A stretch of 64,000 nucleotides of DNA from assembly GCA_006386115.1 (NCBI GenBank), contig VFIW01000076.1, positions 304,463 through 368,462 on the forward strand. Direction: 5' to 3'. Position 1 is the stretch's first letter, and each line of letters begins with the position of its first letter. The position numbers and the translations under genes are program-made. Under the pieces are notes generated by a model. It was not told the origin of the DNA and did no database searches. It saw only the letters and a list, made by a program, of their open reading frames with translations. This document shows, in pieces, positions 14,707-55,787 of this stretch. Source of the stretch: Globisporangium splendens. Lineage: Eukaryota > Oomycota > Peronosporomycetes > Pythiales > Pythiaceae.

Positions 14707-17700
14707 ATGGCGGGGAAGAAGCTCGATTTCGCGATCCCGTTGCAGAGCAATTTCAACACGGACGAGCCGTCGTCGCCGACTGCGGCCGATGCAGATCTGC
14801 TCATGGAGTTACCCTTTGTGACGCCGAGCTACTCGCTCGCGATCCAGTCAAAGTGCGCCATCATGGTGCGGAATGCACTCGTGGCGTCAAAGTGTACGTG
14901 TGACACCGCGTTTATTGTGTATGTGTGCTTTTTTTGGTATGTGTCTGTCACTCACAAAGTGGTTTTTGCTTGTACTTGTGTTGCTGCAGTGTCGACATGC
15001 ACCATTGACACATTGCTGCAGACCATTAGAGAAAATGCTGGTGAAGGCGCAGCGGTTGAGAAAGACGAATTCATTGAGACGGTTCGCATTTTGCCGAGTC
15101 TGCGAAGCGGTGAAGCATTTCGGTCGATCGAAGAGACTCTGGAACGCATATATCGGTCATTTGAAGCCGCAAACCGAGTCGATTTGTACCTGGTAAGTAG
15201 AATTGGACTGTCTTCCATTTCTCTGTCGCATGCACACTAATTGACCTTGTGTGTTTTACCTTTTTAATGACGCGATGCAGCTCGGCATTGGATGCTTGCC
15301 ATTGATCCAAGGATCTGTAAAAGAAAAAGTCCACGGCGCGATCCAATTGAGTTTGTTCGGCTGCGGCGAGGCAATGGACGCTCCTGTGTCGTTGTCGGTG
15401 CTGAAGACAGCGCTTGCGTGCCTGCTGCTGTCGATTTCCGCAGTGTTTGGCCTCGAGTCGGCGACCCCCGACCAGTTGCAGTCGACTTCTACGATCTTGA
15501 CAACCTCTGTGAATGAAGCTGTTGCGCGGTTGTATTCGTTTTATTCGCTCAACAAGGACAGCACATCGTCCTTCGACGCGCAAATCTGGCCGTGGATTGA
15601 GACGAACGCGCCAAAGGTGATGCCGTGGTTGAAGTTTGTGGATCAGCAGAAATGGCCAACGACAAAGCGCTTGACATCGCCAACAAAGAGTGATGCATCG
15701 TCACCGAGACGATGGGCGAGCCAGTCATCGGTCACGAGCTCACAAGCAGAGGGCTCGATTATCGATTCCTCGGGCGAATCGCAGGCGACGACCACCCCGA
15801 CATGCGCGAGTATTGAGCAGACGACGACGCTTAGCTTCCGCTTCTCGGAGGTCGATGGCGGGACGCTCAGTGTCGGCGAAGAGCAAGCGGCGAAGCTTTT
15901 CAACTTGCTGACGCAGTCTGCATTCACCAAAGTAAACCCGAGAGCGATGTATGATACATTTGTACAGCACACAGGCGACGGGTTGCTAGAGGAAGAGACA
16001 TTTCTGGAAGCCATCGAAGAGCTGCTGAGCATGACGAATATGCCGCACCTGAGCAAAGATAGCGAGTTCCTGGACGGCATGATCGATATTTTCCGGTGTT
16101 TCTTGCCGGAAAAGGTGCTCCGAGTTGACGCATTTGAGATCGCGGCTGGCTTCAGTCTGTTTGCGTGGGGGTCGAAAAGTGACAAACTCGGGTCCGCGTT
16201 CCATTACTTTGACGCAGATAGCAAGGGTTTCCTCAACAACCAGCAGTTGTGGCGATTCTTGCGCTCGATTTTGACGATCCTGCTGCATTTATCGCCTCCC
16301 AATCGCATGGTGGTCCAGCGGTATGGATCAATTGCCGCACTTGTCGACACTGGCGAGCAAGAGATCATGGAATCTATTATGGAGGGCATACAATACGAAG
16401 ACTATGAAGACGAGGACGACAGTGAACACGGCGATTTGCTTGAGCGCGATCGTGAGCAAACGAATTCCGAGTTGCGAGCCGGCGTCTATGCGTTTGAAGA
16501 TTTTGGCGAGTGGTACAATTCCGGTGGGTTTAAAGCAATGAGCTGGTTGGAGCTCCTCGATCTACGCAAGTGGGTATTCGTATCCCCCGAGTTTAAGGTG
16601 GATGAACTTGATATTCAGCCTTTCGACCCTGTGTACGCGAGTAGCAACTACTACACAGCAAACAATATTCAAGTTGATGTGGATGTGGAGTGTCCGGGCG
16701 AAGATTTGACCGTTGCGAAACCCCAGTTTACGTTTGCTGAGGCAATCGCAGAAGAAGACGATGAAGATGATGTCGAAAGCCACAGAGATAACAACGTGAT
16801 CCCGCTGGAGCCACCGGACAATTCGCAATCATCGTTTGGATCGTCGTCTAGCGGGCAGCGATCACGAAATAGCAGTATACCAAGTACCCTTCCTGCTATT
16901 TGCCTGAAAAACGAGATCGTGCTCGAATTCGACTTGACGCTAGATGCCGACGACGATGCAGTAACGGAGCTCCCATTGACGACGCTGAGCTTTGACAACG
17001 GAGATCTGATTATGTATGCGGAGCTCCAGCGAGTGACGAAACTGCATCAAGTCGATCTGAGCCGTGTGTATGAAGTGTTTGGTCCCTTGATGGAAGATCC
17101 GAACTTCGCAACCATCGAGAAGAGCACTTTTGATCGATGTGTGCGGAAATTGCTACCGAAGGCTGTCGCACACGATGTTGTGGCAGCGTTCGGCGTCCAC
17201 ACGAATACACGCGTGCCTCCACCCAGTGTGGGACGCGGAAATGATTCCAAGATGGCTGCAGATACGCTCTCGCGTCTGTTTTTCGCGTTCAATCGTAGCG
17301 GTACTGGCAAGATCGACCTCGTAGAGTTTGTTGCAGCGTTCACGATGTTCTGCGCCGGCTCCAAGAGCCAAAAGCTTGGATACGCGTACAGCTTGTTCGA
17401 TTCGGACAACGACGGATCCCTTACAAGACGAGAGATGTGGAAGTATTTGCGCTCGTTCTTGACGATGCTCCTTGCGCTCGGAAACGGCGCCGATTTGTCT
17501 GCCGAAGCCATCGCTAGCGTGGCAGACACGACGGCGATTGAGATTGCTGATACGATTTTCAGAGACTCGAGCAAGACATTTAGTGTGAGACGCCCTTCCC
17601 CACGTCACCAAAAGCGAACGCATCGCCATAGTCTCGATATCCCAGAATCTGCGGACACGATTGTGCTGGCTCAGAACAGGACTCGCCGAGATGGCGATCG

Positions 17701-20700
17701 CCGATATGAACACCGAGGGTCACTCCCTGACGAAGACTCGATCAGTCTGACTGGTGCAGCACAAAGTGCAGCTGGAGCAGGTGCCGGGAACGCATTTATT
17801 AGAGGCGGTGTCGTTTCGTTCCAAGAATTCGCGAACTGGTACTCGAGTCGTGGTCATATTATCATTGCCTGGATCGAATTGCTGGATTCGAAGAAGTGGC
17901 CAGAGGTGAACAACTCCGTCGCGGATGCGATCTTGCGGTACATCAGTCGTCAGCAGAAGGTCACTCTGCCTAATGGAGAGAATGGAGAGCGGGACTCAGG
18001 TTCTTCGAACGATACCGTGTCCTCGAATGACAGCGGACAGCGACGTGACCGCAGTTCGTCCCTGGAGCCTGGATATCCCGACACAAATATGACGATCCTG
18101 AGTGCTGCTAGCTTGAGAACAGGGAATGCAAACACCGCAGTGGCAAGAATGGATGGAATCGGCGGGATTGCCGATCTCATTACATCACCGCCTACGTCTT
18201 CTGCTACGGTGAAAGATTTGTCCTCGGTGGCGTTGCAGTTCAAGTTGACAAACTACGACAACACAACGCTTCGAATTCGATTGAAAGACGTTGCAATTGT
18301 GTACACGATCTCTGAGCGAATGAATATGAGCAGCTTGACGTGCCGAGATCTTGTGAATCTTCTCGAGAAACACTCCCAGGGACGGACGCTGACGAAGCAA
18401 GGCTACCTGAGAGCAATGCGAGAGCTCGTTCCACGGGACGTTCTGACCAACGAAGATCAAGAGTTCCTGTCGTTCCACTTGCTTCGAATATTCACGCTAT
18501 TCGAGACTGAAAGTGCTGTTGATGATGGAAACAACATCAATAGCTTTTTAGGCGAGCAAGAGGACCAAGGCAACGACGCCAACGGTACATCATCCGTGGA
18601 CAAGCTGTTTATCCTGTCTGGTTTGAGCGTCTTTTGTGGCACAACAAAGAGTTCAAAGCTGGGTACATTGTTCAAAGTGTTTGACGCGCACGGGAAGGGG
18701 TACGTTAATCGTCGTCACCTGTTCGAGATGCTCAAGTCAATATTAGTGGTTTTGTTTGCCTTCTCGAGCTTCAACGCTAGCAAGGCTCACTCCAATGACA
18801 CAAGCACGACGAACTCGTGGAGCACGAATTCTGCTGCCGAGCGTGCTGCAGGTGCTGTTATTTCCAAGCTGTTCTGCGAAGCGACTTGCCGCTACCCAGA
18901 TGTGATCAGCCTTGCAGAGTTTGCTGCCTGGTATGCGGCTGGCGGCTACATGGATTGTCCTTGGCTGGAGTTGCTCGACTTGTCCAAGTGGCCAGCAAAG
19001 GAAGCCTTTGAAGCTAGCAAGCGCGAAAAGCCACTGATCTGTGCGTTTGACATCCAAGACGAGAGCAGCATTTTGCAGTTCTCAGAAACTGATATCTCAA
19101 CGTATCTGTTTGTCCTCCGGTCGACGAAGCTGGGTGAATCGAGTGTCAGCAAGATTTACGACTCGCTGTTAGCGTACGCGACACCACCGCCAGAAGAAGG
19201 GAAGAAGAAGAAAGCTACTGGCCAAGGAAAAAGCCAAGCGTACTCGTACGCTGGTGTCGAAGAAGACGAAGGCGCCTACTTGGTGATCACGCGAAGCAAC
19301 TTTTACGAGTGCATTCGCAGCTTGGTGTCCAAAGAAGACATGTCTGAAAAGGCTCAACAGACCTCATCAAAATTGCTTTCAAGGATCTTCAACGTCTTTG
19401 ATCGCAAGCGCTGCGGCCGTGTGAATGCGTTGGAGCTTGCATGCGGAATGAGTATTTTGGGGAAAGGTTCGAAAAGCCAGAAGCTTGCTCTCGCGTTCGA
19501 TTTTATTGCGAAGATGAGACTTCAACGAAACCGTACTCTGAATGTGTACGCTTCGACGAATCACGGCGGCGCTGGTGCGAACGGCAATGCAGGAGCGTTT
19601 GGGTTCGTTGGCGGAGGTATCAACAGCATCTCCACGGGTGGTCCCACGTTTGGATTACCAAGTATGCGTGGCGCACCTCCTGGTACTGCTGGTCTTCGCC
19701 GTACAGCGATGCAGAATGAGGCAAACGCGCTCCCACACTCAGTGCTATTCATCTACTTGCGATCGTTTTTGCTTGCGCTGATGGCGTTGAGCGATGGGAG
19801 CTACCGGCTGGGGATTGAAAAGATGCACACAGAAGCTGAAGACTTTATCGAGGAAGCGATGGGAGACCTCATGACCGACGTGAGCACAACTGGCGGAGGT
19901 GCAATGGCTGCTGCCTCAAACAATGGCTTTGCTGCCTTTGGTAGCGTGCGTTCTCGTGCAAGTGTGACGTTCCAGCAGTTTGGGGAATGGTACAACACTG
20001 GCGGTTTCCAGATCATCTCATGGGTCGAGTTATTGGACGTTGCGAAATGGGAGCAGCAGCAAGAATATCAGGAACAGACGGCGTCGCTCGCGGGAGTCGG
20101 AACGGGCCGAGTCATGAGCAAGCGCATGCCTGTCTTGGGCTCACAGCGACCAGGAAATTACCCGGCGTCGAACGCGCAGCCGATGGAGCACGTCCAGCCC
20201 ATCGAGAACTACTACAGCACGAAGCAATTCACGCAAAAGCAGCATGTGCGGCAGAGTGAGATTGTGTCGACTTCGTATCCGCAGAGCATCCAAGCGATGG
20301 GCAAGCAGCAGGAGAAGAAGGAGCGCGACCAACGGGACTCGATCAGTGCCATCAGTTTGTGCTCGGACGGCCCGATTATGGTGTTTGCCGTCGCACGGAA
20401 GGCTGCCGAGTTGCACTTTTTCAACGAAGATATCACGCGCTTGAAGCACTTTTTGCATCAAACGCAATTGCATGTGGTGACGCCATGGGATCTCGGGGCG
20501 TCGTTGAAAACGGCATTGAACATCCCGAATCTAACGACCACAGCGTTCGTGACTCGCAGCCAGTTTATCGAGTCAGTCGAGCAGGTTTGCTTTATGCAAG
20601 CGGAAGGTCGAGCTGCACCAATGTCTATCAGTGAGGAGTCGATGGAGCTACTCGACCAGGTGTTGACGGTGTTTGTGCGCGAGCCGGAGGCTATCAAAAG

Positions 20701-21253
20701 TGGTGGTTCTACCATTGTGGAGGACGACGACGACGACGACCATGAAGGAAACGATCTGCTCGAGTTTGGTGCTGCTGTGTGCGGGTTGCTCGTGGTGTGT
20801 CAAGGCACGCTGCTCGACAAGCTCCGATGCGCGGCGCATCTGTTAGAAGACGGCCACGATAGAGAGAACTCCCAATCTGTCGTCATGGAGACCCTCAAGT
20901 CGTCGCTCATGTGCTTCTTGATGGCGTTCTACGGCATGAGCAGCTCGTTGGGGGCCGAAGTGGTCCGGTTCTCGGCTGAGTTGGGTGCTGAAGAGGTGCT
21001 ACATTCGTTTGAGGTCTCGTTTTCGAGTCCGTTGGGACAAAGCGACGATGAAGAGGAAGAAAGTAAGAGCGAGCAGTCCCTCGACTTGACGAAGGCGGTC
21101 TCGCTGCAAGAGTTTAGCGAATGGTTTGGCGATGCTGGCTACCACTCGCACCCGTGGCTCGAGCTGGCGGAGCTCCGACACTGGCCTGCTGCCATCAATG
21201 TGTGCGGCGCTGACACCGGAACCGTCGACACAAACCCGAGAGCGATCTTGTAG
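14707..21253 (+). CDS. Giant six-module EF-hand-related protein
   Basis: Three exons (14707-14893, 14990-15192, 15281-21253; donors GTACGT and GTAAGT) encode 2,120 residues. The last exon is a single 6 kb open frame. The protein is six diverged copies of one module. Each has a calpain/C2-like beta segment, a helix with GSKSxKLG, an EF-hand-like loop, a helix LxxxLRSxLxxLLxL and a terminal signature EFxxWYxxxGxxxxxWxELLDxxKW. Signatures end near nt 15655 (degenerate), 16570, 17905, 18990, 20050 and 21185. Loops with acidic ligands include FDSDNDGSLTRREMW and FDADSKGFLNN. Others, such as FDAHGKGYVNR, are partly degenerate, so only some are likely to bind Ca2+. No enzyme domain, signal peptide or membrane segment is seen. 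Acidic or Ser-rich linkers separate modules. I infer a large Ca2+-responsive scaffold; I do not recognise a named family. Confidence 0.85.
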
Positions 21254-23154: not shown

Positions 23155-24867
23155 TTATCTGCCACATCCTTCACCACCTGCGATCGGGTAGCACGAGAGC
23201 CCAGGCACGAAGGACATGACGTTGATCACGGCCGAGTACGAGAAGAGCACGACGGCGAAGACGATGATGGCGGCGCTCGCACCCTTGGTGAAGCCACCGT
23301 ACATGCGCTGCTGCTGCGCGTCGAGCTTCTGCGCCGGCAGCCAGAGCAGCCCCACGAGCGCGATGAGGTTGATGCCGTAGTTGAGCACGAGCGACCAGAA
23401 CACGTTTACGCGCACGTTGTGCGTGTCGAGCTTGACTTCGGACGGCGTGTAGTACTGGTCGCCGCGGAAGAGACCCTGCGCGTTCGTGCTCACGAACACG
23501 CCGATGAGCCGCTGCAGCGAGAGCACGAGACCGACGGTCGCTCCCTCGGAGCCCTCTTGGATGATCTCGACGAGCGGCGCGACGTTGTTGAGCGTCGTGA
23601 TGCCGTCCGCAATGAACGAGACCGACATAATCGCGCGGTACGCGTACCGGTCGCGCACGACGTCAAATGACACGAGTGCTGACGCGAGCAGTTGCGGGGT
23701 GACCTGCAGGAACGGTGCCCAGCAGAAGAACGCGCGCCACGACTTGTTCATGAAGAAGTAGCGCCACGCGAGGATCGTGAGCAGCATGGTCACGTCCTGG
23801 ATCGTCTTGAGCAGCAGCGTGTTGTCGTTCGCGGCGCCCGTGGCCCAACTACGTACGGCGTTGGCCGAGTCGGCAAACTTGACGGCGAGGAACAGCGCGT
23901 AGAACGAGATGAACGCGAGAATGCCCCACACGGCGCGCTGCTGCATGATCTTCCAGAAGATCTGCGCGCGCACCTTCATCGTGTTGGGCAGCGAGTAGTG
24001 CTCCTCCTGCCAGTACTTGAGAATCACGGGAAGCGGCACTAAAGACACACACGCGAGCAACAGCGTCGCGTTCGAGAGCTTCATGTTGGGCTCCGAGCCC
24101 GCGGCACCCGAGCCGAGCGTCAGGTACGAATACGACGCCGTCACGAGCGAGGTGAGCCGTCGAAACACCAGGTAGGACACCTGGATGGAACCGCGATTAC
24201 GCAGAGATTCGCGTTGCGAGAGCTCGATCACGCGCGTGTGCACGCAGAGGTACGTGATGATGCAGCCGACGCTCGCGAACGCCGAGAGCACGATGAGCAG
24301 CGTCACGAGGCGCTGGTCCTGGGTTTCGTTGTTGGCCTCCTGGGACTCGAAGTGTGCGCTGATACCAGCCATCGCGAGCACACACGACGCATTGAGCAGC
24401 ATGCCGATGACCATGTACGCCTTGCGTCGCAGACCCATGATCGGGTAGCAGTCCGAGAGCAGCCCCACAAAGAAGCTGAGTGCCATGGGCAGCTCAATCA
24501 GGCGCTGCACCGCGACGTTTTCCTGCTTGGTCAGGTTGAGCTTGGAGCTCATGAGTGGCCGCAGCACGCCCTGGAGCGACTGAAACGAGAACGCGGACGA
24601 GAACACGGCGGCCACGAGTCCAATACACTCCATCGAGTAGAAGCGCACTTCGCCGCCCGTGCGCAGACTGCCGTACATCTCGTGGTTGTAGAACTGGTTC
24701 CCCGCGACGTACCGCGAGACGCTGCCGCTGAGGACAACAGCAGGAGGAGGACCGCCGCTAGCACCCAGGGGTGGTGACTCGTAGAGCTGCATGCCACCGT
24801 AGCCGTTCTCCTTGGCCGTCGACGTCGAGCGGCTCCCTCTCGGAGGTGGCGACCATGGAGACTTCAT
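23155..24867 (-). CDS. Folate/biopterin transporter (BT1 family, MFS fold)
   Basis: An intronless 570-residue ORF with a short basic N-terminus and about 12 hydrophobic helices. Family features include an early substrate-pocket region YSMECIGLVAAVFSSAFSFQSLQGVLRPLM, quoted in parts as IGLVAAVFSSAF and SLQGVLRPLM. Others are LLSDCYPIMGLRRKAYMVIG, which is the MFS loop 2-3 motif (D-x-x-P-x-x-G-x-R-R-K), and FIADGITTLNNVAPLVEIIQ near helix 10. BT1 proteins carry folates, pterins or S-adenosylmethionine in kinetoplastids, apicomplexans, plants and oomycetes; the substrate here cannot be read from sequence. Oomycetes typically have many paralogues. Length and topology match intact family members, and the strong codon bias (GC-rich third positions) suggests good expression. 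The first ATG, giving MKSPWSPPPRGSRS, is taken as the start. Confidence 0.9.
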   Translation of the reverse strand: MKSPWSPPPRGSRSTSTAKENGYGGMQLYESPPLGASGGPPPAVVLSGSVSRYVAGNQFYNHEMYGSLRTGGEVRFYSMECIGLVAAVFSSAFSFQSLQGVLRPLMSSKLNLTKQENVAVQRLIELPMALSFFVGLLSDCYPIMGLRRKAYMVIGMLLNASCVLAMAGISAHFESQEANNETQDQRLVTLLIVLSAFASVGCIITYLCVHTRVIELSQRESLRNRGSIQVSYLVFRRLTSLVTASYSYLTLGSGAAGSEPNMKLSNATLLLACVSLVPLPVILKYWQEEHYSLPNTMKVRAQIFWKIMQQRAVWGILAFISFYALFLAVKFADSANAVRSWATGAANDNTLLLKTIQDVTMLLTILAWRYFFMNKSWRAFFCWAPFLQVTPQLLASALVSFDVVRDRYAYRAIMSVSFIADGITTLNNVAPLVEIIQEGSEGATVGLVLSLQRLIGVFVSTNAQGLFRGDQYYTPSEVKLDTHNVRVNVFWSLVLNYGINLIALVGLLWLPAQKLDAQQQRMYGGFTKGASAAIIVFAVVLFSYSAVINVMSFVPGLSCYPIAGGEGCGR

Positions 24868-27668: not shown

Positions 27669-30039
27669 TCAAAAAAAATAGCTTTCCAGTTTGTGACTCT
27701 CGCAGTGAAACAGGGTCAAATGACAATAGTCTTTGTAAAAATCGGGGCACAGCGCATCGGGGACAGCGTCCGTGGTCGACTCGAGTGAAAAGTAGCTGCG
27801 TTCGTGAAACTCCATCGCGTCCGAAGAGCTCTCGTCGTCGTTCACCGGACTTTGCTTTTGGTCTGCGGTGGGATAGGACGTCAACGTCTGGATGCCCTTG
27901 GAGAGCCACATGGGGATGACCTGGTTGCTCTGAGCGTTCTGTTGATACTGCTGACTCAGTAAATGCTTGGCACGCTCGAGTGCTGACAGTGCGATACGAT
28001 TCGTCTCGAGCTTCAGTTCTCGGCTGTCAGCGATGGACGCGTTGCGTTCGCTGGTCGACGGGATCAGTGCGCACACTGCAGATGCGGACGCTTCCAAGAG
28101 CAACTCGCTTGTGGCTTTCTTGCAGAGCTGGCAGATCGGCAAGTGACCATCGAGCTCGAGGACCTGGCTCCGATTGGCCTTGGTCTTTGCCACCACGGCA
28201 AAGCACTCACACGCGGCGACTAGCGTGGCTTCGTCGCGCCCGTACCGTTTGCTTTGGCTGATCACGTACAGGAGCACCTGGAGTCCATTCTGTGCGGCGA
28301 CGCGGCTTTTGTTCAACGGATTCTGATGACAAAGGCACGTGATCGCTGATAACACGGCTTCGAGCACCGTGGGGCTCGTCGCATCCACCGCGAGCTGCAG
28401 CAGGAAGGTCACCGCGTCGCCGTACCCGATCGAGAGCTGATTGACTGACGTGTAAGCCAGATTTGCAATGCCAATCGCACATGCTCGAATTAATTGTGGA
28501 CTCTGATGCAAATTCTTAGCGGCGCTCAAGCCTTGAGTGAGCGCGACGTCTCCCTCCAACGCCACCATGGCGCTTTGGTTGACAACATGGTTGAACGCGA
28601 CGTTGCCAATGAGCTTCGCGGCTTCAGCTTGGACACGCAAATCTGGACTTTCGCGAAGATACTTGACGGCGATCGGCAAGAACTGGAAGTTCACGATCTG
28701 CGAGCGCAGGATTTCCGAGTCTGTTGTCAGTAGAGTAGGATATACATGTAGTTGTTTCAGTGTCCATGTGAGGTGAACGACATGAAATGTCCACATCGTA
28801 CCGTACGAGAGATTCACAAGTGCAGAGAGCGCTGCCATGTGGACTTCTGAGTCGCCAACAAGCGGCAACTTCTCCATTCGCGCACTCTCAATGAGCTCAT
28901 CGTCGTCGTCGCTATTGTCCTGCTCGTTCTTGTGTCCTCCTGGCAAGGACGGTGCAACGGGAAGCAGCAAGCGAGTCAGCACTCGGACCACGTTTTTCGC
29001 GGCCAGGACTCGTTTGTTGGGGATATGGACAGCGAGTGCAGCACACAACCGCGAAGCCTCGATAATCACGCGAGGATTCCGCACGTCAGTCTCCAGGATA
29101 TGCACGAGCGGCGTCGCTACCCCGGCTTTGGTAATTTCTTCCTTGACGTTCACGCTGGTTGTCGGACTCAAGCTGCCGCCACTTTCACTAACACACGCGA
29201 GTCTGTGACGATGCAGCAGTGGCCGCGTAGGTTTCTCGTGGATCGCGAGATGCACGAGCGCCAGCAGCACAGACCCCGTGACGAGATCGCCGCCAACATG
29301 CGCACTCAGGAGATGGGTTAAGAACGGCAGCACTCCGGCGTGGGTCACTTTGACCGCTGACGTCGCGGGAAGCAGCGCTATGCTCTGCGCGAATCTCGCA
29401 AACACGTCGTCGGCAGGGTCGACAGGTTCTTGTCCTGATGGCGAAGTAGTGCTTGCGGCGACGAACTTGCGCTGCCATTGCTGCTGTGCGTCCTTGTCGT
29501 GCTTTTCCTGCTGGAGCTCTTCCTGCAGCGCGAGCACTTTGGCTTTCCAGAGCTCGCGCTCTTGCTCAATAGCGAGCTGCTGGACGTGCATTTGCTCGCG
29601 CTTTGCCGCCTGAAGCATCTCGGAAAGCTCATGGACTCGAACATGAAGCCTACGCAAAGGCGAAATGATCACATATCATAAGCGAGGCGTCACGCTCATA
29701 CACACATTCACAAGGCGAGCAGCTACAAACTGGAATCTCACGCACGTGTGCACTTGTGCCTCCAGGTCGGTGATCTGGTTGAGAAGCTTCTGCTCGCGCT
29801 GGTCCTTTTCCTGCTGCACGTCGGCGAGCTGCCGCGAGAGCTCGAGCTCCTTTGGGGTCGGCACGTATGGGTACGCCTAACGGGTTCCTCAAAGAGCAAT
29901 TCATGAAGCATGCAAGCAGCGATGTGAGCCTGAAACTGCCTGAAGGATCTGCATCGCAGCGTGGCCTACTCACCGCATCCTTGGGCTCGATGAGCGCCAC
30001 CCTCACGAGAGACTGTGCGCTTGGCACTCGCTGCGCAAC
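27669..30039 (-). CDS. Armadillo-repeat protein with N-terminal coiled coil
   Basis: Three exons are supported: 29974-30039, 29746-29876 and 27669-29649, in phase, with donors GTGAGT and GTGCGT. An acceptor at 30039 shows at least one further 5' exon that I could not find, so the start is missing. The first part (PTPKELELSRQLADVQQEKD, then EQKLLNQITDLEAQV, then HELSEMLQAAKREQ) is a long heptad-rich coiled coil. After it comes a region of ARM/HEAT-type helices such as VAFNHVVNQSAMVALEGDVA, LIRACAIGIANLAYTS and VLEAVLSAITCLCHQNP. ARM solenoids bind extended peptides; coiled-coil plus ARM proteins often work at cilia, centrosomes or junctions. Function here is unassigned. The gene is divergent from TMEM65, 5' ends roughly 330 bp apart. 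Confidence 0.75.
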
Positions 30040-33142: not shown

Positions 33143-36100
33143 TTAGATGACGCACTTCAAGACTCCATCGTCGCTTCCAACGAGGACCAGTTGGCGCAGC
33201 GGCAGCACGCAGACGCTCTGGCTCGAGACCTTGCTCTTGCTCATCTTGGTGCTGTTCGAGGAAAGCGAAGACAGCGACGGCTCCATCAAGTACGACGCGT
33301 CCACGCGCACCGTCGGCGCTACGACATCATTCTCGCCGCTGCTCTTTATGGCATCGCTTTCCGATGGCAGGCGCGCAGTGTAAAGCTTCGACGAGCAAGC
33401 GACGTACAACACGTTCATATCGGTGTAAGGCTGGACGGCAACCTGGCTTTCGCGGATAGCTTCGGGGATCCCAGTCACAATCATCTGCACGCGCGGCTTG
33501 TGCAAGTGCCTCAAGCTCCACACCCGCGCTTCACGTTCGGCACCAACGGCAAGAAACTGTGACGGAGAGAACTGCACGATCTTGATGATTTTCCCGTTCA
33601 GCGCCTGCCATCTCGCCATTTGCTTCCCTGTTTGCCTGTCAATGAGAATTATAACGCCCGCTGTCGTACCTGCCGCGATGTACACCTGACTGCTGCTCGA
33701 TGAAAAGATCGTCGCGAGCGTCGAGATGTTGACCGCATCGCGGACATCCACACGCCAGTCCGACACGACGCGAGGTCCCGAGCGCAAATCCACGCAGAGC
33801 ACTTTGTGTGAAGTCGAGACAGCGAAATCGGCGCTCCCCAAAATGGCCGACGCGCCAAACAGTGGGTTCGTGAGATGCGGATGCAGCGGAAGCGACCGCA
33901 GCAATGCAATCGAATTCACGTTCTCTTCGACGAAAGGCAGCTTCACGCGCACTTGGCTCGTTCGAATATCCCAAACATGCACGCATGCCGCCTCCATGGC
34001 GATCGCATGCGTACCGTCCATTGCATTTTGCACCGACAAGATAGGCGACGCAGTCTGGACTGCTGCCTGAGCGTGGCAAGGATGACTCGCAAGCCTCCAG
34101 GCGCGACAACTGCCGTTCTTGCTTCCCGAGAGAACGATTTCCTCTTCCAAGTCCACCGACAATGCGCGAACAGAACTGGAATGCGCCTTGATGGAGTTTC
34201 GAATCTCGGAAGTGAAGGTCCAACTCTCGAGAGCACCACTCCGATTGCTTCCACTTGAGTACGTCAGAGGGAAGGAATGATAATTCCCGCCACCAGGTCC
34301 TATATCAGGAGAACTCTCTGGAAATGACCTACCTCCAAACGGTTTCTTCACCAATGGCCGCAGCCACGCGTTGTCAAATGCCGCACGCTGGACTGACGAC
34401 GAAAGAGAACTCGACAGCAAGACCGTCCGTTTGTGTCGCTCATCTTGAACTCGGAAGATCTCGTTGAGATCTTGCTGATTCTGGTTGAGAATGGTGGACG
34501 GGATGTGAAGAAAGCTGGTCGATTTCACAGAATTGAGACGAACGGTGCGGTACGCAAAGCGCAGCAGGCTGTGAGAGTTCTTTGAGATCGCCTTCAGCTT
34601 GTCCTGAGTACCGTTCCAACCGACATCGAGTGTCGCATCCAGCATGTTTCTTCCGGGATCTCTCTCACGCTCACCACTCTGCTTTGCCAACCGATCGTCC
34701 AATACGCTCACATTCTGGCTAGTATTGCCACCGATAGGCAGCAGCAGCAATTGAAGCACTGAGTTGCTTTGCACAATGGGAAAATACTTACCGAAAACAT
34801 CCTTACCGAGGAGCGACCGAAGCGGGATGCACAACTCGGACACAATCTCACTCGCCAGATGCCACTGGAAGTTGGAAACCTCCAGCTGACTGTATACCAC
34901 GCTGCAGCGAGTCAAGAACTTGTTGATTCCCTGCACCAAGGGAACTGCACTTATTGTCGCATCTGGACCAATTTTCTGGCACATCGCAACGATTGTGCGA
35001 GCCAGCCCGACAACTATGAACGCACGTAATTCTCGATGGTTTTCTTTCTTCATCACACTCAGACTTCGCAAGATCTTTTGTTTCGTCGTGTTGACAACAG
35101 CCACATTGGAACGTGACGACGTGCTCGAGCCTTCGTGGATATAGGCATGAGCTGTCTTTGACGAAGTGGCTGCCGCAATGATAGCAGCTGCGGTTTGCGG
35201 ATGAAGAAACGGGGGCTCAATAGCCTCCAGCATGCCTACAAGCCCATTGTCTTTCCGATACAGCAGGTCGCTTTGGATGTGTGCATCGCTCAAATTGCGA
35301 ATGATGTGGCGCAAGATCCGCAAAATCACGTAGATTTCTCGACCAAGATCTCCCTGAAGACATCCAGACAAAGCAGTGTGTTGATATAGAAACAACGCAG
35401 AGGACCCTCGTCGGAAAAAAAGAACATGAATGACTTACCGGAACACCCTCAACTCGAACGGAACCAATTTTCTCAGCCAGCACGATAAGCTTCGGCAAAA
35501 CATCGAAAATATGCGGGAGGAGAATACTACGGACGGGATAGTCGCTGATCTCGCGGCACACAAGCAAAAGAGCATCCGCGACATAATGAGGTTCGTAAAG
35601 GCACGACTTGGCCATGAACGTGACATGAATCCCATCATTGTTGTGGCCACTTAGCTCAGAGCCCAGATCGTCGACACCACTTCTGTAGCTGCTCGACCCT
35701 TTTTTCCGGAGCGTGCTCGACTTGGTCAGTTTCGTCCACTTGTTCTTGATCTTTCCCAAATGAGGCAGCAAGGAGGTAAGTATAAACTTTGAGGCCAATG
35801 AAGGACCTAGGATATTCGCAGAAGCCAACTCTCCCACTGCCAAGGCTGTGACGGCGAGCGCTTCCGAAGCAAAAAGCGGGATTTTCGTCATACATCTGGA
35901 CGCTTCGTCGACGTTCAATGAGGGTGCCCAGGTCAAACCTTCACTAAGCCCGAGTGACGGCGTCGACACAATCCAATCTACCAGCACTGGCAAAAAGCAT
36001 TCAATGAATGCAATATTCCCAAAGCTTTTCACCACTTCCTTGAGCACCTCTGGCGCGGACAAACAAATCTTCATCAAAAACGTCAACTCCGAACTCTCGT

Positions 36101-39100
36101 ACGCACGTAAAATGTCGCGCGTTAGCTCTTGCTTCATCCCCAGCTTGTCCAGTTGAGCATTCAGCGAAGGTAGCAAGAAAACAATGGCTGCCACAACTCT
36201 CTCGACACGAATCGATTCGGTGTGTGACGATGCGTGGAAAAACTGAGAGATTACAGGGAACACGACTCGAAATTGCTGCGGCGGAAGCTGCACAAGTGAT
36301 GGCAGGAAGAGTCGAGCTGTGTCGAAACGATCTCTCCAGTTCGATGAGCGGTTGTACTGGGACAGGAAGCGGTACATCAGCGCAAATTCAGCAGGAAACA
36401 GGTTGTACTGCGACGGACAGAACTCCTCGTTCAAAATAGTACTGTGGGCAGGCTTGAGGCTTGGCTGTAGTTTGCTGTCATTCTTCCTTTGCAAAGAGCA
36501 GAGAATTGAATGAACCTCTTTGCCATCCAGTACTCCGATCAGCAATAACCGTTCCTTGGGATGAGGATGTATCAACGCAAGGACAGCATTCTATACACCA
36601 AAACGGAAGCGTTAGATCGGATCAAAAAGCACAGCAAAATCAACAACCAACCTTCATGTTGATAGGCATCTCACGGAGCTTGGAGGCGATCGCGTTGTTC
36701 CAACTATCTGGTTGCTCGAGTTTTGTCTCCATGTCGGTTTGTGGATTGCAAGTCGGAGCATTCACTTGTCTAAACAAGTTGAAGTACTCAACGATAGATC
36801 GCTTTGAAAAGAGTGGCGTCAGCGTGTAGATCTCTGCAATGATGCAGCCCAGGGAAAACAAATCAGCAGCTTTTCTGAATTCTTGATCCGTCAATTCTCG
36901 AGTATCTGGGATAATCTAGTAAAGTGCAACATCACGCATTCAATGTCAGTAAGCGCTCTTCTCCACAAGTACCATCTTGCAATCTTACATTTTCAATATA
37001 GCTGCGTGGAAGTGAGTATGCTGGATCGACAACCGCCTCAACCGTTCGCCGTAAGCTCGCTCGCGTTTCTAACTCCATCGAGCTTTGTTCGTGCGCGCGA
37101 TCCTCTAGTTCAGTAAGGGAGACTTGAGCTGTTTGTACGTTCTTGAATTCTGGAGATGGATCCTTGTCTTGCAAAGCACTCGATGTCGAGATTTTTATCG
37201 GAAGCCCGACGCGCAACAATTGCAAGTCCATTTCATCGAGGTGTTCAAAATCGGTTTCTCCCCAATCATAATCCAAAACGTCGTATCCACTGTTTTCTGA
37301 CGTGAAATCAGCGTCGAATTCTTCTGGCTTGCTTATCTGTTGCCAGAAGTCACGGAAGATATGAGAGCCCGCGTGTGCGTTCGTATGGTTACTGACTGGA
37401 GCACCTCGCGCAAACTGAGTTGAAGTATCTTCGTTTACTCCATGAATCAATGGAGCAGAAATAGCCAACATTCGCATTTGGTCAGTGCCGTCGCCATGCT
37501 GTTTTGATCCGCTTGCACCCCCTGCGAACGCCGAGGAGTTTGACGGCGATTCACTTCCAGCAGGAAATGCAAATGCAGATCCTCCGCCAATCGCATTGCA
37601 TGATGTATGAGTATGAGCTGAATCCGGGTGAAAGAAGTTAGGAATGACCGTTGCTAGCCGCGATACTGTCGGAGACTTTGCACTTCCGTCGTTTAAGCTT
37701 GAAGGCGGTGACAGCGGAGGCTCGGATCCATGCGACCGTGGGCGGGATTTCGTTTTTCGCCTTTGCTTCAAGCGAACGAGAGATTGTGATTTTGAGCTTG
37801 ATGGAAGTGCAGGACTCTGGCTCATTTGGCCACTCACCGTCAGATGACTGCTTTGAACCATTCTTGTCCCATCAGATGCATCACTGGTCGGCGCCGCCAC
37901 CACCTCGTTGGAGTCGTTTGCGATCAGCAAAGCTTTTGCCAGCATTCCTTCCGCCTGCTTTTTCATTTCACTTGGACGAAAAAGAGTCATCAGCAACTGT
38001 GATCGGTCCACTTGCTCGCGATCAGTCCCTTCTCCTTGTGGAAATGAACACGTTGACGACGACTCCAAGATGGCATCGGGCAGGCTCTTCTTTATTGTCT
38101 TTTTCGCTGGGTGTGATGCATCGAAAACTTGGACAAAGCCTGGGCTTTTTTCCAGCTGAGACTCCTTTTGGACCTTTAACGGGACATTCTTCTGTTTTAC
38201 TGCTTGATCCCCGCTAAGACTCACACCAAAATTCAAGTCAATCCAGGTGTGAAGTTGCGACGAAACCTCGTCACCTTCTAGCATTTTGCGATGAACACGA
38301 ATGAAGTCAGCAGCATCTTCGCACCACGTCGGCAGTTCCAAGTCCTCCATCTCTTCGCCATGAATGGATTTGAACACGTCCGGCTCAGTGTAAAATTCTG
38401 GAATGCACTCGTCTGGGGTCCAGTCGTACATCCGCGCAATGCTTGATGGATACTCTTTTGCCTGGAAATTGGAGCGTACAACTTGTCGAAGCAGCGTCAT
38501 TGGAGTGCGCCGAGCCAAGTATATGTAGTACGTGATCTCTGACAAGCTACGATTTCGCAATTATCTCTGTGAGATGATCACTTCACAGAGTCAACATGAC
38601 GCGAAAAATTTGCTACATACCTTTCTGTGATATGATGCGGAATGACACTGTTTTCGTACGTTCGATCCAGTTGATTGTCGCCTTTGTTCAAGCGGAATTT
38701 GCTCTTACTTAAATCACGCCAGCCACTATCCCGAGCTCGAAAGTCCATCACCCACGGTAAGAAAGGATGAAATACGCCGTCGATCTAAAGCAAAGGGAAA
38801 CGTGAGAACAATCGCACCGCACTCGTTTCAGGATTTTGGTGTGGAAAGTGCTTACCATTCTGCGACCAGCTGCTTTGTTGAGCAACATCAAATACTCGAA
38901 ATTGCTGATGTCGCCATCGCACCATTGCTCTGTTACGGATCTCGTTGAGAACGAAGCAACCGATCGGGACATTTGCAAAGACTCAATTGGTTCTTGTAGC
39001 AACGGAGCTTGCGATTTCCGCTCTAGGTTCGTTTCTGCTTCGCCAGAAGTCGACTGAACAAACGGGAGAGAACCTAGGCGTACCCATAGTGTATCGGTGA

Positions 39101-42282: not shown

Positions 42283-44328
42283 ATGGCAAACATGGCGGGC
42301 GTCAAGGGCAAGTACATGCCGCTGAGCGAAGCCAACGTGAGTCCGCTCATGGTCTCGTCCTACGACGGACAGTATCTCTGCGTGAGCTCGTCGTCGGCGG
42401 CTCCCGGCAGCGCTTCTTCCTGTTCGTCGTCGTCGTCGGCGGCGGCGTCGTTTAATAATGCGAGCGACAAACGTGACGCGCGCTTCTCCATGGGCAATTA
42501 TCTCGGCGGAGGCATCGCCGGCGTCGTGTACGAGGCGTACGACCGAGAGTACGCGCGCAACGTCGCGATCAAGATCTTGAACCCGGTCGGTTATAAAATG
42601 TGCTCGCCCGCGGCACTCCGACGCGGCGAGATCATCAAAAAAGGTGTGCCGATCATGGGCAACGTGCGCGGTATGACACTGGAGAATGTGTACTGGGTGA
42701 GTGTCCCGAACCGTCGTGACTTAATCGCGTGCTATGTTGACGGAAGAAACGCGTCGTCTACTTCGTCGGCGATGATGATGGGGATGAACGCCAGCAACAA
42801 TTCCGCGAGTCCGTCGGTGATGCTGCGCGAGTTAACGCTCGAAATGTGCGTGTCGCTGTGGCTTTTGGATGCGGATTTGGACGATGTTGTACAAAACCAG
42901 CGATTTGCGAGCGAAGACCCCGTGAATGACCACCACCACAACAACAGCTGCCGACGTGTGACGGCTCGAACCACAACAAGGACAATGATCGCGGGCCAAA
43001 TGCGCGAAGAACGGAAAGAAGACGATAGCGACAGTCTCGACGTGGACGAAGAGGAGCTGATGATGGATGCGACCCATGCACTGGCTCGCGAAGAGGAAAT
43101 CAAGGTCGGCGACGTCGTGTACATGGTTCCGAAAATGCCTGCGAAATACAAGTCCTTTTTGCAGAGCCGCAAGACCATTTACCGTGAGATTGCGCACATG
43201 CACAAACTCACCGGTAATTCCGTGTCGGGTCAAGTTGGTGGTGGCCATGAAAATGTACTCAAGCTGTACGATGTGCTGGAGTTCGTTCAGCCGTCCAAGA
43301 GCACGATCTTCCTGGTGCTCGAACTCGCGTACGGAGGCGAACTCTTCGATCGCATTCGATCAGACAACGGCGTCGAGGAATCGGTGGCGCGAGGCTATTT
43401 CAAGCAGCTGTTATCGGGCGTCCTGTATTGCCACCAGCTCGGTATTGTGCATCGCGACCTCAAGCCTGAGAACTTGCTGTTGAGCGAGTCGGATGTGCTC
43501 AAGATCGCCGACTTCGGACTTTCGGCGCATTTCATTGCAGCAGTGAGCGGAAGCGCACAGGATGACTCGTCTCTGATGGCGCTCGGCAGCAGTAACTATC
43601 AGCCTGAAATGGACGGGGAGTCAGGTATCATGACGCCAGCAAGATTCCGCCGTCTCAATTCGATTGTCGGGTCTCCACATTATGTCGCGCCCGAAGTTTT
43701 GCAGAACGCACGGTACGGGTACGAAGGACGCAAAGCGGATATGTGGTCCATTGGTGTGATTCTGTATGGTCTCTTGGTCGGCAACCTTCCGTTTGGCAAG
43801 GAATTGCCAACGTGCCCTCGCTATTTAAAATTCTGTGAATGGATCCGATCCCTTCCGTGCGAGCCTCTGACGGGCAAGCTCATGTTCGACATGGATATCT
43901 TCAATGCCGGTCCTGCTCGCATTCTTTCTAGTACCAGCAACCCATCATTGCCCCAGCAAGACGATTTCGCCAAGGCGCAGCAGCAGCAAATCCGGATGGC
44001 TCAAGTGCTCCCGAGTTATCAGCCGACGCCTGCGATGATGATCCATTCCTCATCACTTTGGAGCGGCGTGCCAACGCCAACGAAGCCGCCTGCTTCGGCG
44101 ATGAGCCTGCAGAGCAACAACAACGAGGCTGGCAACAGCGCTCTCCAGAACGGAGCTGGCGGACGACGAGGCAGCCGCGTCGTGACGTTCCCAGGATGGT
44201 TTTTCCCCGCCAAGTTGTCTCCGCAAGCAGTGTTCCTGCTCGCTTCGCTGCTGCAGCCGGACCCAGCCAAGCGCATTTCGTGCGAAGACGCGTACAAATC
44301 CAATTGGGTCATGGATCCAATGTACTGA
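42283..44328 (+). CDS. CAMK-like Ser/Thr protein kinase with a large N-lobe insertion
   Basis: An intronless 681-residue protein. The glycine loop is LGGGIAGVVYEAYD near residue 72, with the ATP lysine in VAIK near 94. About 200 residues of inserted, partly low-complexity sequence follow before the alpha-C helix region (KTIYREIAHMHKL). The rest is canonical: hinge LVLELAYGGELFDRI, catalytic loop HRDLKPENLLL near 390, DFGLS near 409, activation segment GSPHYVAPEVL near 465-475, and DMWSIGVILYGLLVGNLPFG. A second insertion (residues ~510-630) precedes the final helices LASLLQPDPAKRI. The catalytic residues K, E, D and D are present, so it should be active. The kinase core is closest in style to CAMK/SnRK/AMPK. 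No calmodulin-binding or UBA motif was recognised. Confidence 0.85.
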   Translation: MANMAGVKGKYMPLSEANVSPLMVSSYDGQYLCVSSSSAAPGSASSCSSSSSAAASFNNASDKRDARFSMGNYLGGGIAGVVYEAYDREYARNVAIKILNPVGYKMCSPAALRRGEIIKKGVPIMGNVRGMTLENVYWVSVPNRRDLIACYVDGRNASSTSSAMMMGMNASNNSASPSVMLRELTLEMCVSLWLLDADLDDVVQNQRFASEDPVNDHHHNNSCRRVTARTTTRTMIAGQMREERKEDDSDSLDVDEEELMMDATHALAREEEIKVGDVVYMVPKMPAKYKSFLQSRKTIYREIAHMHKLTGNSVSGQVGGGHENVLKLYDVLEFVQPSKSTIFLVLELAYGGELFDRIRSDNGVEESVARGYFKQLLSGVLYCHQLGIVHRDLKPENLLLSESDVLKIADFGLSAHFIAAVSGSAQDDSSLMALGSSNYQPEMDGESGIMTPARFRRLNSIVGSPHYVAPEVLQNARYGYEGRKADMWSIGVILYGLLVGNLPFGKELPTCPRYLKFCEWIRSLPCEPLTGKLMFDMDIFNAGPARILSSTSNPSLPQQDDFAKAQQQQIRMAQVLPSYQPTPAMMIHSSSLWSGVPTPTKPPASAMSLQSNNNEAGNSALQNGAGGRRGSRVVTFPGWFFPAKLSPQAVFLLASLLQPDPAKRISCEDAYKSNWVMDPMY

Positions 44329-54251: not shown

Positions 54252-54890
54252 ACCCAAGATGTGCAACGCATTCGGCTCCACAAAACAAACAACGATGACA
54301 ACAATTGCAATGGCGCCATCCGCAGGTGTACATGCAAACAGTGAGACACGTCGGCAACTGTTGGACCGCATTGTGTACGAGCATCTCGACGTGTTTCGTT
54401 CAGCGAAACACAACCTGCTGATTGTAGCTCTTCGGCAAGAAAATGTAGCCATGTGGCCAACGATGTGTTGATCTCAAATGAATTCGGACTGCAATCACGT
54501 GTCTTCTCTCGCTGTTGATTGGCTAGTCATCAACGATATCTCGTCTATGATTGGATGATGGATATGTGAGTCATCATATTTCAATGTTCTGATTGGCTGA
54601 TCGGTTTAACCGTTTCTCCTCTGCCACATGCGACTTCAACGCTCCACGTGTTGTATGCATCATCATTTTCTCCGCAGCAATGCACGAGCATACAAACTTC
54701 AATTGTATTGCAATGCAATGTCATTGCATGGTCCGGTATATTGGTCGGCATCGCAGACATTGTTTGCCAATCAACGGACCAAAACATTCACTCTGCACTC
54801 GATAATGAAATGGCGAACGGCTGCTTGATTTGAATGGAGCTGCTCGTTTTCTCCTCATCTGCATTTCCAGATCTCCCTGCTGTTGCCGTC
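54252..54890. other. Intergenic, promoter side of cystinosin copy 2
   Basis: Repeated TGATTGG/CCAAT-type boxes occur on the plus strand near 54515-54605 (TTGATTGGC, ATGATTGGATG, CTGATTGGCTG). They are possible CCAAT promoter boxes. No ORF of interest. Confidence 0.45.
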
Positions 54891-55787
54891 ATGAACTTGT
54901 TCCTGCAGCTGCCGATCAACACGCGCGTGGGCATCGTGTCGGGGCTGATCCTCGCGGTCGGGCTCGTGCTCGGGCTGCTGCTCGACGCGAACGCGCACAT
55001 CCCCAAGCCGTGGAACCGCGTGTCGTCGATCATCGGCTGGATCTACTTCTCGTGCTGGAGCGTGAGCTTCTACCCGCAGGTGTTCCTCAACCACGCAAGG
55101 AAGAGCGTCGTGGGCCTCTCGCTCGACTACACGGTGCTCAACATGCTCGGCTTCACGTGCTACACGATCTTCAACTGTGCGTTCTACTACAGCGAGAGCG
55201 TGCAGGAGCAGTACATGCGCCGTAATGGCGGCAACCGCAACGCCGTCGAGATCAATGATGTGTTCTTTTCCGTCCATGCCGCGGTGCTCGTTGGCGTGTC
55301 GCTGTTCCAGTGCACGATTTACACGCGCGGCGGCCAAACTGTCGGCAAGGCGACGATCGCATGGACAGCTGGCACAGTTGTGGCTGCGACGCTGTTTGGC
55401 TTGGCGGTAATGATTACGGGCAACGACGAGAACTCGCTGCTCAACACTCTCAACTTTCTGTACCTGCTCAGCTACGTGAAGCTGATGACGACCCTGGTCA
55501 AGTGCGTCCCACAGATTGTCTTGAACCACCAGCGTAAGTCGACCGTCGGTTGGACGATCTGGAATGTGCTGCTCGACATCGCCGGTGGCTTGCTCTCGAT
55601 CGGGCAGCAAGTGCTGGACAGCGCCGCGACTCACGACTGGACTGCGATCACGGGCGATCCGGTAAAGTTTTCGTTGGGTTTCGTGAGCATCGTCGTCGAC
55701 ATCGTGTTCATCTTGCAGCACTACGTGTGGTATGCGAGCAACAACCACTACATCGCGTTGGACGAGAAGGCACCATTCTCACCATAG
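54891..55787 (+). CDS. Cystinosin-like cystine/H+ symporter (PQ-loop), copy 2
   Basis: An intronless 298-residue protein closely related to copy 1: both share DANAHIPKPWNRVSSI, YMRRNGGNRNAVE and ITGDPVKFSLG. It has seven helices with PQ-loops in CWSVSFYPQVFLNHARKSVV and LVKCVPQIVLNHQRKSTVGW. It ends with IVFILQHYVWYASNNHYIAL, a short tail with a Tyr motif. Start at 54891 (MNLFLQLPINTRV) is favoured by collinearity with copy 1; an in-frame Met at 54834 would add 19 residues resembling leader sequence. GC-rich codon use and an uninterrupted frame indicate a functional gene. The two copies point away from each other across the IQ pseudogene region, consistent with an inverted duplication. Confidence 0.87.
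   Translation: MNLFLQLPINTRVGIVSGLILAVGLVLGLLLDANAHIPKPWNRVSSIIGWIYFSCWSVSFYPQVFLNHARKSVVGLSLDYTVLNMLGFTCYTIFNCAFYYSESVQEQYMRRNGGNRNAVEINDVFFSVHAAVLVGVSLFQCTIYTRGGQTVGKATIAWTAGTVVAATLFGLAVMITGNDENSLLNTLNFLYLLSYVKLMTTLVKCVPQIVLNHQRKSTVGWTIWNVLLDIAGGLLSIGQQVLDSAATHDWTAITGDPVKFSLGFVSIVVDIVFILQHYVWYASNNHYIALDEKAPFSP

Follow-up and report, generated by a model that had tools for sequence, protein, structure and literature searches.

A gene in a 64,000-nucleotide stretch of DNA from the oomycete Globisporangium splendens (contig VFIW01000076.1, positions 304,463 to 368,462; hereafter the window) raises the question of why a cell would keep a chain of EF-hand domains in which nearly every calcium loop departs from the canonical pattern. 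The gene product is 100% the same sequence as FI667_g13255 of the NCBI G. splendens record, and from its 2,120 residues a mass of ~233 kDa and an isoelectric point of 4.9 are computed. A pattern of one live loop among 24, kept across the oomycetes examined, offers an entry to why cells retain chains of calcium-blind calcium sensors and a way to ask whether pseudo-EF-hands serve as constitutive docking domains. Positions of all features are given in Table 1.

Six modules and a predicted fold

The initial annotation of this DNA proposed a six-fold internal repeat, and profile comparisons bear this out. Scanned with a module profile of 233 columns, FI667_g13255 shows six successive modules. A control profile whose only source was the set of seven modules in P0044, a distant relative, with FI667_g13255 left out, matches modules 1 to 6 with best pieces of 53.6, 130.6, 129.0, 95.7, 59.4 and 43.7 bits, modules 3 to 5 being matched in two or three pieces each. 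With the same P0044 profile, the top domain over 200 shuffles of FI667_g13255 reaches 3.7 bits, and the six modules are therefore not a product of chance. When module 6 is aligned by hhalign to a profile of other modules, the probability is 98.6%. Pairwise identity among the six is 18-32%; full-length BLAST of FI667_g13255 against itself returns the self-match only, without internal matches, and BLAST between excised modules reveals the repeat.

Every module aligns as four EF-hand units (EF1 to EF4), for a total of 24. The kinship with EF-hands had thus been seen correctly at the outset, whereas the single loop then ascribed to each module corresponds mainly to the third unit. The helix described as LRS in every module reads LRS in modules 2, 3 and 5, LKS in 4 and 6 and LKT in 1. 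The closing signature is present throughout, in degenerate form in modules 1 and 6 (W...MPWLKFVDQQKW; WFGDAGYHSHPWLELAELRHW), and its Trp is almost invariant. By sequence, and for module 3 also by predicted fold, the modules are four-EF-hand domains of the neuronal calcium sensor (NCS)/calcineurin-B type with an added cap, W.ELLDL.KW. Module 3 was the module folded, modules 1, 2, 4, 5 and 6 being assigned from their sequences. Its model, computed from an alignment (A2) of 31 rows besides the query, one of which is FI667_g13255 itself (P0002), has four helix-strand-helix units; a further alignment (A3), with 30 rows besides the query, likewise includes the full protein P0002. In structure comparison, the model shows a fold match to apo NCS1p, and below rank 6 most matches, to EF-hand pairs of calmodulin, kinases or other proteins, cover about half a module. 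An insert in EF4 of module 3 carries the motifs RHSLD and HRGSLP, which are present in the majority consensus of the relatives' alignment and which we take, from the motif type, to be possible basophilic-kinase sites.

The module profile matches frequenin continuously, and the closest solved relatives include calaxin; guanylate cyclase-activating proteins (GCAPs) give poorer matches than NCS-1 or calcineurin B. Like the NCS family (NCS-1/frequenin, recoverin, KChIP) and calcineurin B, FI667_g13255 has a four-EF-hand domain with a G-x4-KL linker between EF2 and EF3. NCS proteins characteristically have an inactive first EF-hand and a helix following EF4. In contrast to NCS proteins and recoverin, which are single domains of ~200 residues with Ca2+ sites in EF2 to EF4, FI667_g13255 holds six domains in a chain of 2,120 residues, has a strictly canonical loop in one of its 24 slots, carries the Trp cap and begins with MAGKK, lacking the N-terminal Met-Gly for myristoylation. 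No clear membrane segment was seen in a hydrophobicity scan with 19-residue windows, no dedicated localisation predictor having been used; the peak (mean 2.1) lies at residues 170-188, in the LRS-equivalent helix of module 1.

The initial annotation knew of no named family with this architecture. This stands insofar as generic EF-hand families (EF-hand_6, _7, _1 and _8) are the only ones of Pfam and NCBIfam to exceed their cut-offs in FI667_g13255, although the module itself belongs to the type named above. A published name for the six-module architecture was not found in a literature search judged from the opening lines of abstracts; PMC5322657, discussed below, was the one related text. Two other candidates were rejected as sub-threshold EF-hand cross-matches: the NCBIfam effector family XopAW, at 23 bits where the cut-off is 120, and Pfam ThsA_Macro, at 16.1-16.3 where it is 25, the latter cut-off being narrowly exceeded by the relative P0051 (26.5).

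Age of the array and state of its loops

The orthologue search listed 48 relatives among 7,981 scored candidates, from which P0037 and P0038 (incomplete gene models) and P0089 (a partial record) were left out of the census. Exactly six module matches are found in 39 of the 41 oomycete-type orthologues examined, in agreement with the conserved copy number that had been set at the outset as a test. The exceptions are P0025, with seven matches because module 6 is split in two, and P0034, with five because the N-terminus is missing; these two are untabulated, and the 39 that remain comprise 27 oomycetes and 12 environmental sequences of oomycete type. A tree was built on 72 modules of 14 family proteins, modules with at least 100 gaps in the 233 columns having been removed. 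In it, each of the six positions forms its own clade across five oomycetes (Globisporangium, Phytophthora, Albugo, Saprolegnia and Aphanomyces) with bootstrap values of 99-100. The array therefore predates the split of these five, and its modules have not been homogenised. Across lineages, the sole grouping is that of module 5 of oomycetes with thraustochytrids (71%), the other positions being without clear grouping. Identity between G. splendens and Saprolegnia is 47-55% for modules 2-5 and 25-26% for modules 1 and 6.

The loops of all 24 slots were compared across the 39 orthologues. Because some gene models lack parts, fewer sequences are readable for module 1 (EF1 31, EF2 32, EF3 38), module 3 EF4 (37) and module 6 EF1 (38). 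Module 3 EF3 alone is strictly canonical, in 38 of the 39, and the 39th still has all four ligands. The remaining 23 slots are strictly canonical in none of the 31-39 readable sequences each, and near-canonical loops occur among them only in module 1 EF1 (four sequences) and module 6 EF4 (two). The initial annotation had stated that several loops lost Ca2+ ligands, a wording that understates the matter.

Some of the dead loops are fixed position by position rather than drifting. In module 5, EF2 has Lys at ligand position 3 and EF4 has Arg at positions 3 and 5 with Gln at 12, and in module 2 EF3 the closing Glu is replaced by Gln (Table 1); K5 of this last loop is missing from the five Saprolegniales among 12 representatives. 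Module 3 EF2 keeps N1, T5, G6 and E12 in 39/39 orthologues and might be a weak Ca2+ site. Conservation scores, computed on these 12 hand-picked representatives, are 0.69-0.84 for module 5 EF2, module 5 EF4, module 2 EF3 and module 3 EF2; the live loop scores 0.83 and the four linkers measured 0.13-0.36. In the linker that joins modules 2 and 3, which is variable elsewhere, the conserved island PVYASSNYYTANNI is retained out to Saprolegnia (SMYYTAKNI in P0041) and is a possible docking motif.

Relatives and a calcium-competent sister array

A second family search, started from P0044, gave 131 proteins, of which the best 120 were considered, and module matches were counted in 95 proteins (P0044-P0138). 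Besides the six matches of oomycetes, four are found in diatoms (Attheya, Chaetoceros and a record labelled Psemu), in the bolidophyte Triparma and in Chrysoparadoxa, the first module often being partial; five are found in the thraustochytrid Hondaea and three to 11 in environmental proteins. Taxonomy was looked up for Hondaea, Chrysoparadoxa and Chaetoceros; the Psemu-labelled record is presumably Pseudo-nitzschia, a pennate diatom without flagella. FI667_g13255 points to an unnamed family of giant proteins, each composed of 3 to 11 capped NCS-type domains and represented in this analysis by oomycetes, diatoms, bolidophytes, Chrysoparadoxa and a thraustochytrid. In the environmental seven-module proteins P0044, P0050 and P0051, several modules combine three canonical loops (EF2-EF4) with the Trp cap, so the cap is not coupled to loop loss. 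Cap-less arrays of 13 matches each, with mostly live loops, are found in P0060 (from the dinoflagellate Durusdinium trenchii), P0061 and P0068. A search for stand-alone single-module proteins yielded three of 7,993 scored candidates. Two are fragments, one from Hyaloperonospora and one environmental, and the third is a generic EF-hand protein that lacks the cap; the sensitivity of this search being limited, the absence of such proteins is not established. No relative was confirmed among the 36 pattern matches from one scan of viral contigs or the 3 from one scan of prokaryote genomes.

At least one further giant EF-hand array gene is present in the same genome (L008:396-6977, minus strand; G000:C11). 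Its open frame of 2,194 residues holds 10 full NCS-type modules and no cap, a count that covers this one frame. Of its 30 EF2-EF4 loops, 26 are strictly canonical and 4 near-canonical, and none of its 10 EF1 loops is. A copy of this array that is 99.9% identical (L009; G000:C13) lies at the start of another contig (143,614 and 142,953 bases for the two contigs), and the two may be either haplotigs or a duplication. Like FI667_g13255, the sister array and P0060 consist of tandem NCS-type modules; unlike it, they lack the Trp cap and have mostly canonical EF2-EF4 loops. The sister array can be aligned with P0060 and P0061 over ~2,000 residues (33-36% identity), but in more than one register, and orthology is therefore not established. 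From the loop counts, two arrays of the same bead, one calcium-competent and the other mostly calcium-blind, are encoded in a single genome, the former being a natural control for the latter.

Two Phytophthora infestans proteins, PITG_04603 and PITG_10150, with 10 and 8 EF-hands, are called novel in PMC5322657, where one of them is fairly constitutive, the other is induced >100-fold in sporangia, and orthologues are given in both zoosporic and azoosporic species. They resemble FI667_g13255 in being multi-EF-hand oomycete proteins, and they may be the pair formed by FI667_g13255 and the sister array. Tandem NCS-like domains are a known kind, of which the capped, mostly calcium-blind six-module form appears to be a new variant.

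A proposed docking scaffold and its alternatives

Our favoured reading, in which belief and doubt are about evenly balanced, is that FI667_g13255 would be a calcium-independent docking scaffold of six NCS-type domains with one Ca2+ switch in module 3. It is drawn from the six homologous modules, their sequence match to the NCS type, the four EF-hands predicted in module 3, the one conserved canonical loop among 24 and the dead loops, some of which are conserved position by position. The five loop-dead modules, in which some loops have Lys or Arg at a ligand place, would hold one fixed conformation without Ca2+ and would dock partner helices or peptides constitutively, by analogy with the dystrophin EF-hand region and its ligand. 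As cytosolic Ca2+ rises, module 3 would bind one Ca2+ and change shape, and the assembly would be loosened or tightened; the W.ELLDL.KW helix would shut the groove of its own module or touch the adjoining one. The protein probably resides in the cytosol and forms no part of the flagellum. The proposal in the initial annotation that some copies sense Ca2+ and others are structural fits to the extent that a canonical loop is kept by a single copy only; the scaffold function itself is an inference.

The dystrophin EF-hand region is calcium-blind and binds beta-dystroglycan together with a WW domain. Identity in structure comparison is 13-15%; in FI667_g13255, Pfam EF-hand_2 reaches 14.8 bits against a cut-off of 27, EF-hand_3 is not listed, and no WW or ZZ family is among the Pfam matches. 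EF-hand_2 exceeds its cut-off in the sister array (39.9) and EF-hand_3 in P0051 (27.4 against 21.7), which points to cross-matching of EF-hand models. Two observations on conservation among the 12 representatives weigh against a general fixation of the dead loops: scores are 0.36-0.51 for the loops in modules 1 and 6, and some other loops, among them module 3 EF1 and module 5 EF3 (0.47), lie under their own module means (0.55-0.56). Constraint is accordingly demonstrated for some dead loops only. A bolder and rather doubtful version would describe a hard-wired sensor array, in which Ca2+ is replaced by a tethered Lys or Arg, or the closing Glu is lost, in five of six modules, each of them frozen, with module 3 the true switch; oomycetes, and perhaps stramenopiles at large, would then own a matched Ca2+-dependent and Ca2+-independent pair.

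The same low scores bear on the improbable alternative that the protein is a relic of a calcium-sensing array whose dead modules decay without function. The divergence of modules 1 and 6 from Saprolegnia is consistent with decay, as is the fact that most loops are non-canonical and many are conserved no better than their own module, but the persistence of six matches in nearly all orthologues, the fixation of several dead loops with the same substitution and the near invariance of the cap Trp argue for retention. Cooperative binding by many EF-hands, as in a Ca2+ buffer or multi-site sensor, would be in line with the EF-hand families that exceed Pfam cut-offs, the loops of the sister array, the many live loops in the relatives P0050, P0051 and P0054 and the putative weak site in module 3 EF2; with a single strictly canonical slot of 24 in the orthologues of FI667_g13255 itself, it is very improbable.

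Database names of source records ('Guanylyl cyclase inhibitory protein', 'putative guanylate cyclase activating protein', 'Kv channel-interacting protein 4') would make the protein a regulator of one enzyme class, of the guanylyl cyclase inhibitory/activating or Kv-channel interacting kind. These names look transferred from generic EF-hand similarity, however, the GCAP match is the weaker one, and a literature search found no link of 'guanylyl cyclase inhibitory protein' to Phytophthora; we consider such a role quite unlikely. For a flagellar or zoospore calcium sensor of the calaxin or centrin type, the closeness of calaxin can be cited, as can the finding of PMC5322657 that more than half of the calcium-binding-protein genes of P. 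infestans are spore-induced, but four-match relatives are found in diatoms, the Psemu-labelled record included, and six module matches in Peronospora effusa, P. belbahrii, P. destructor and Bremia lactucae. These four downy mildews come from genera described as lacking zoospores, entirely or for the most part (PMC3471859, PMC6264045). Downy mildews that form no zoospores have lost flagellar genes, those surveyed being depleted in flagellar and EF-hand domains (PMC6264045). Because six modules persist in such species, a flagellar role has very little likelihood.

Frames of other families in the window stand at the foot of Table 1.

Table 1. Position of the FI667_g13255 gene, its modules and loops, and neighbouring frames (window coordinates)
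Feature	Position	Strand	Remarks
Gene, 3 exons	14707-14893, 14990-15192, 15281-21253	+	GT-AG introns; open frame without internal stop; 2,120 residues
Module 1	14800..15667 (residues 32-259)	+	spans both introns; fast evolving; degenerate cap; 194.7 bits, profile including module 1
Module 2	15818..16582 (residues 310-564)	+	profile match
Module 3	16910..17911 (residues 674-1007)	+	profile match; sole module with canonical Ca2+ loop
Module 4	18221..19000 (residues 1111-1370)	+	profile match
Module 5	19028..20062 (residues 1380-1724)	+	profile match; long insert within third EF-hand
Module 6	20366..21193 (residues 1826-2101)	+	profile match; fast evolving; degenerate cap
Live EF-hand loop DSDNDGSLTRRE, module 3 EF3	17399..17434	+	D1, D3, D5 39/39; position 12 E 38, D 1
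Dead loop DADSKGFLNNQQ, module 2 EF3	16211..16246	+	position 12 E to Q; Q12 38/39; K5 33/39
Dead loop DRKRCGRVNALE, module 5 EF2	19400..19435	+	D1, K3, E12 39/39
Dead loop SVRSRASVTFQQ, module 5 EF4	19943..19978	+	R3 37/39; R5, Q12 39/39
EF4 exit helix and cap, module 1	15587..15655	+	
EF4 exit helix and cap WYNSGGFKAMSWLELLDLRKW, module 2	16511..16573	+	
EF4 exit helix and cap, module 3	17837..17899	+	
EF4 exit helix and cap, module 4	18929..18991	+	
EF4 exit helix and cap, module 5	19988..20050	+	
EF4 exit helix and cap, module 6	21122..21184	+	
Conserved island PVYASSNYYTANNI, module 2-3 linker	16628..16669	+	alignment of 12 representatives
Insert in EF4 of module 3	17582-17803	+	~75 residues, low-confidence
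BT1-family transporter frame	23155-24867	-	Pfam PF03092, 45 bits; adjoins FI667_g13255 gene
ARM-like frame	27669-29672	-	Pfam scan
WD40-like frame	33143-35395	-	Pfam scan
BEACH domain frame	36932-38560	-	Pfam scan
Protein kinase frame	42283-44328	+	Pfam scan
PQ-loop protein frame	54834-55787	+	Pfam scan
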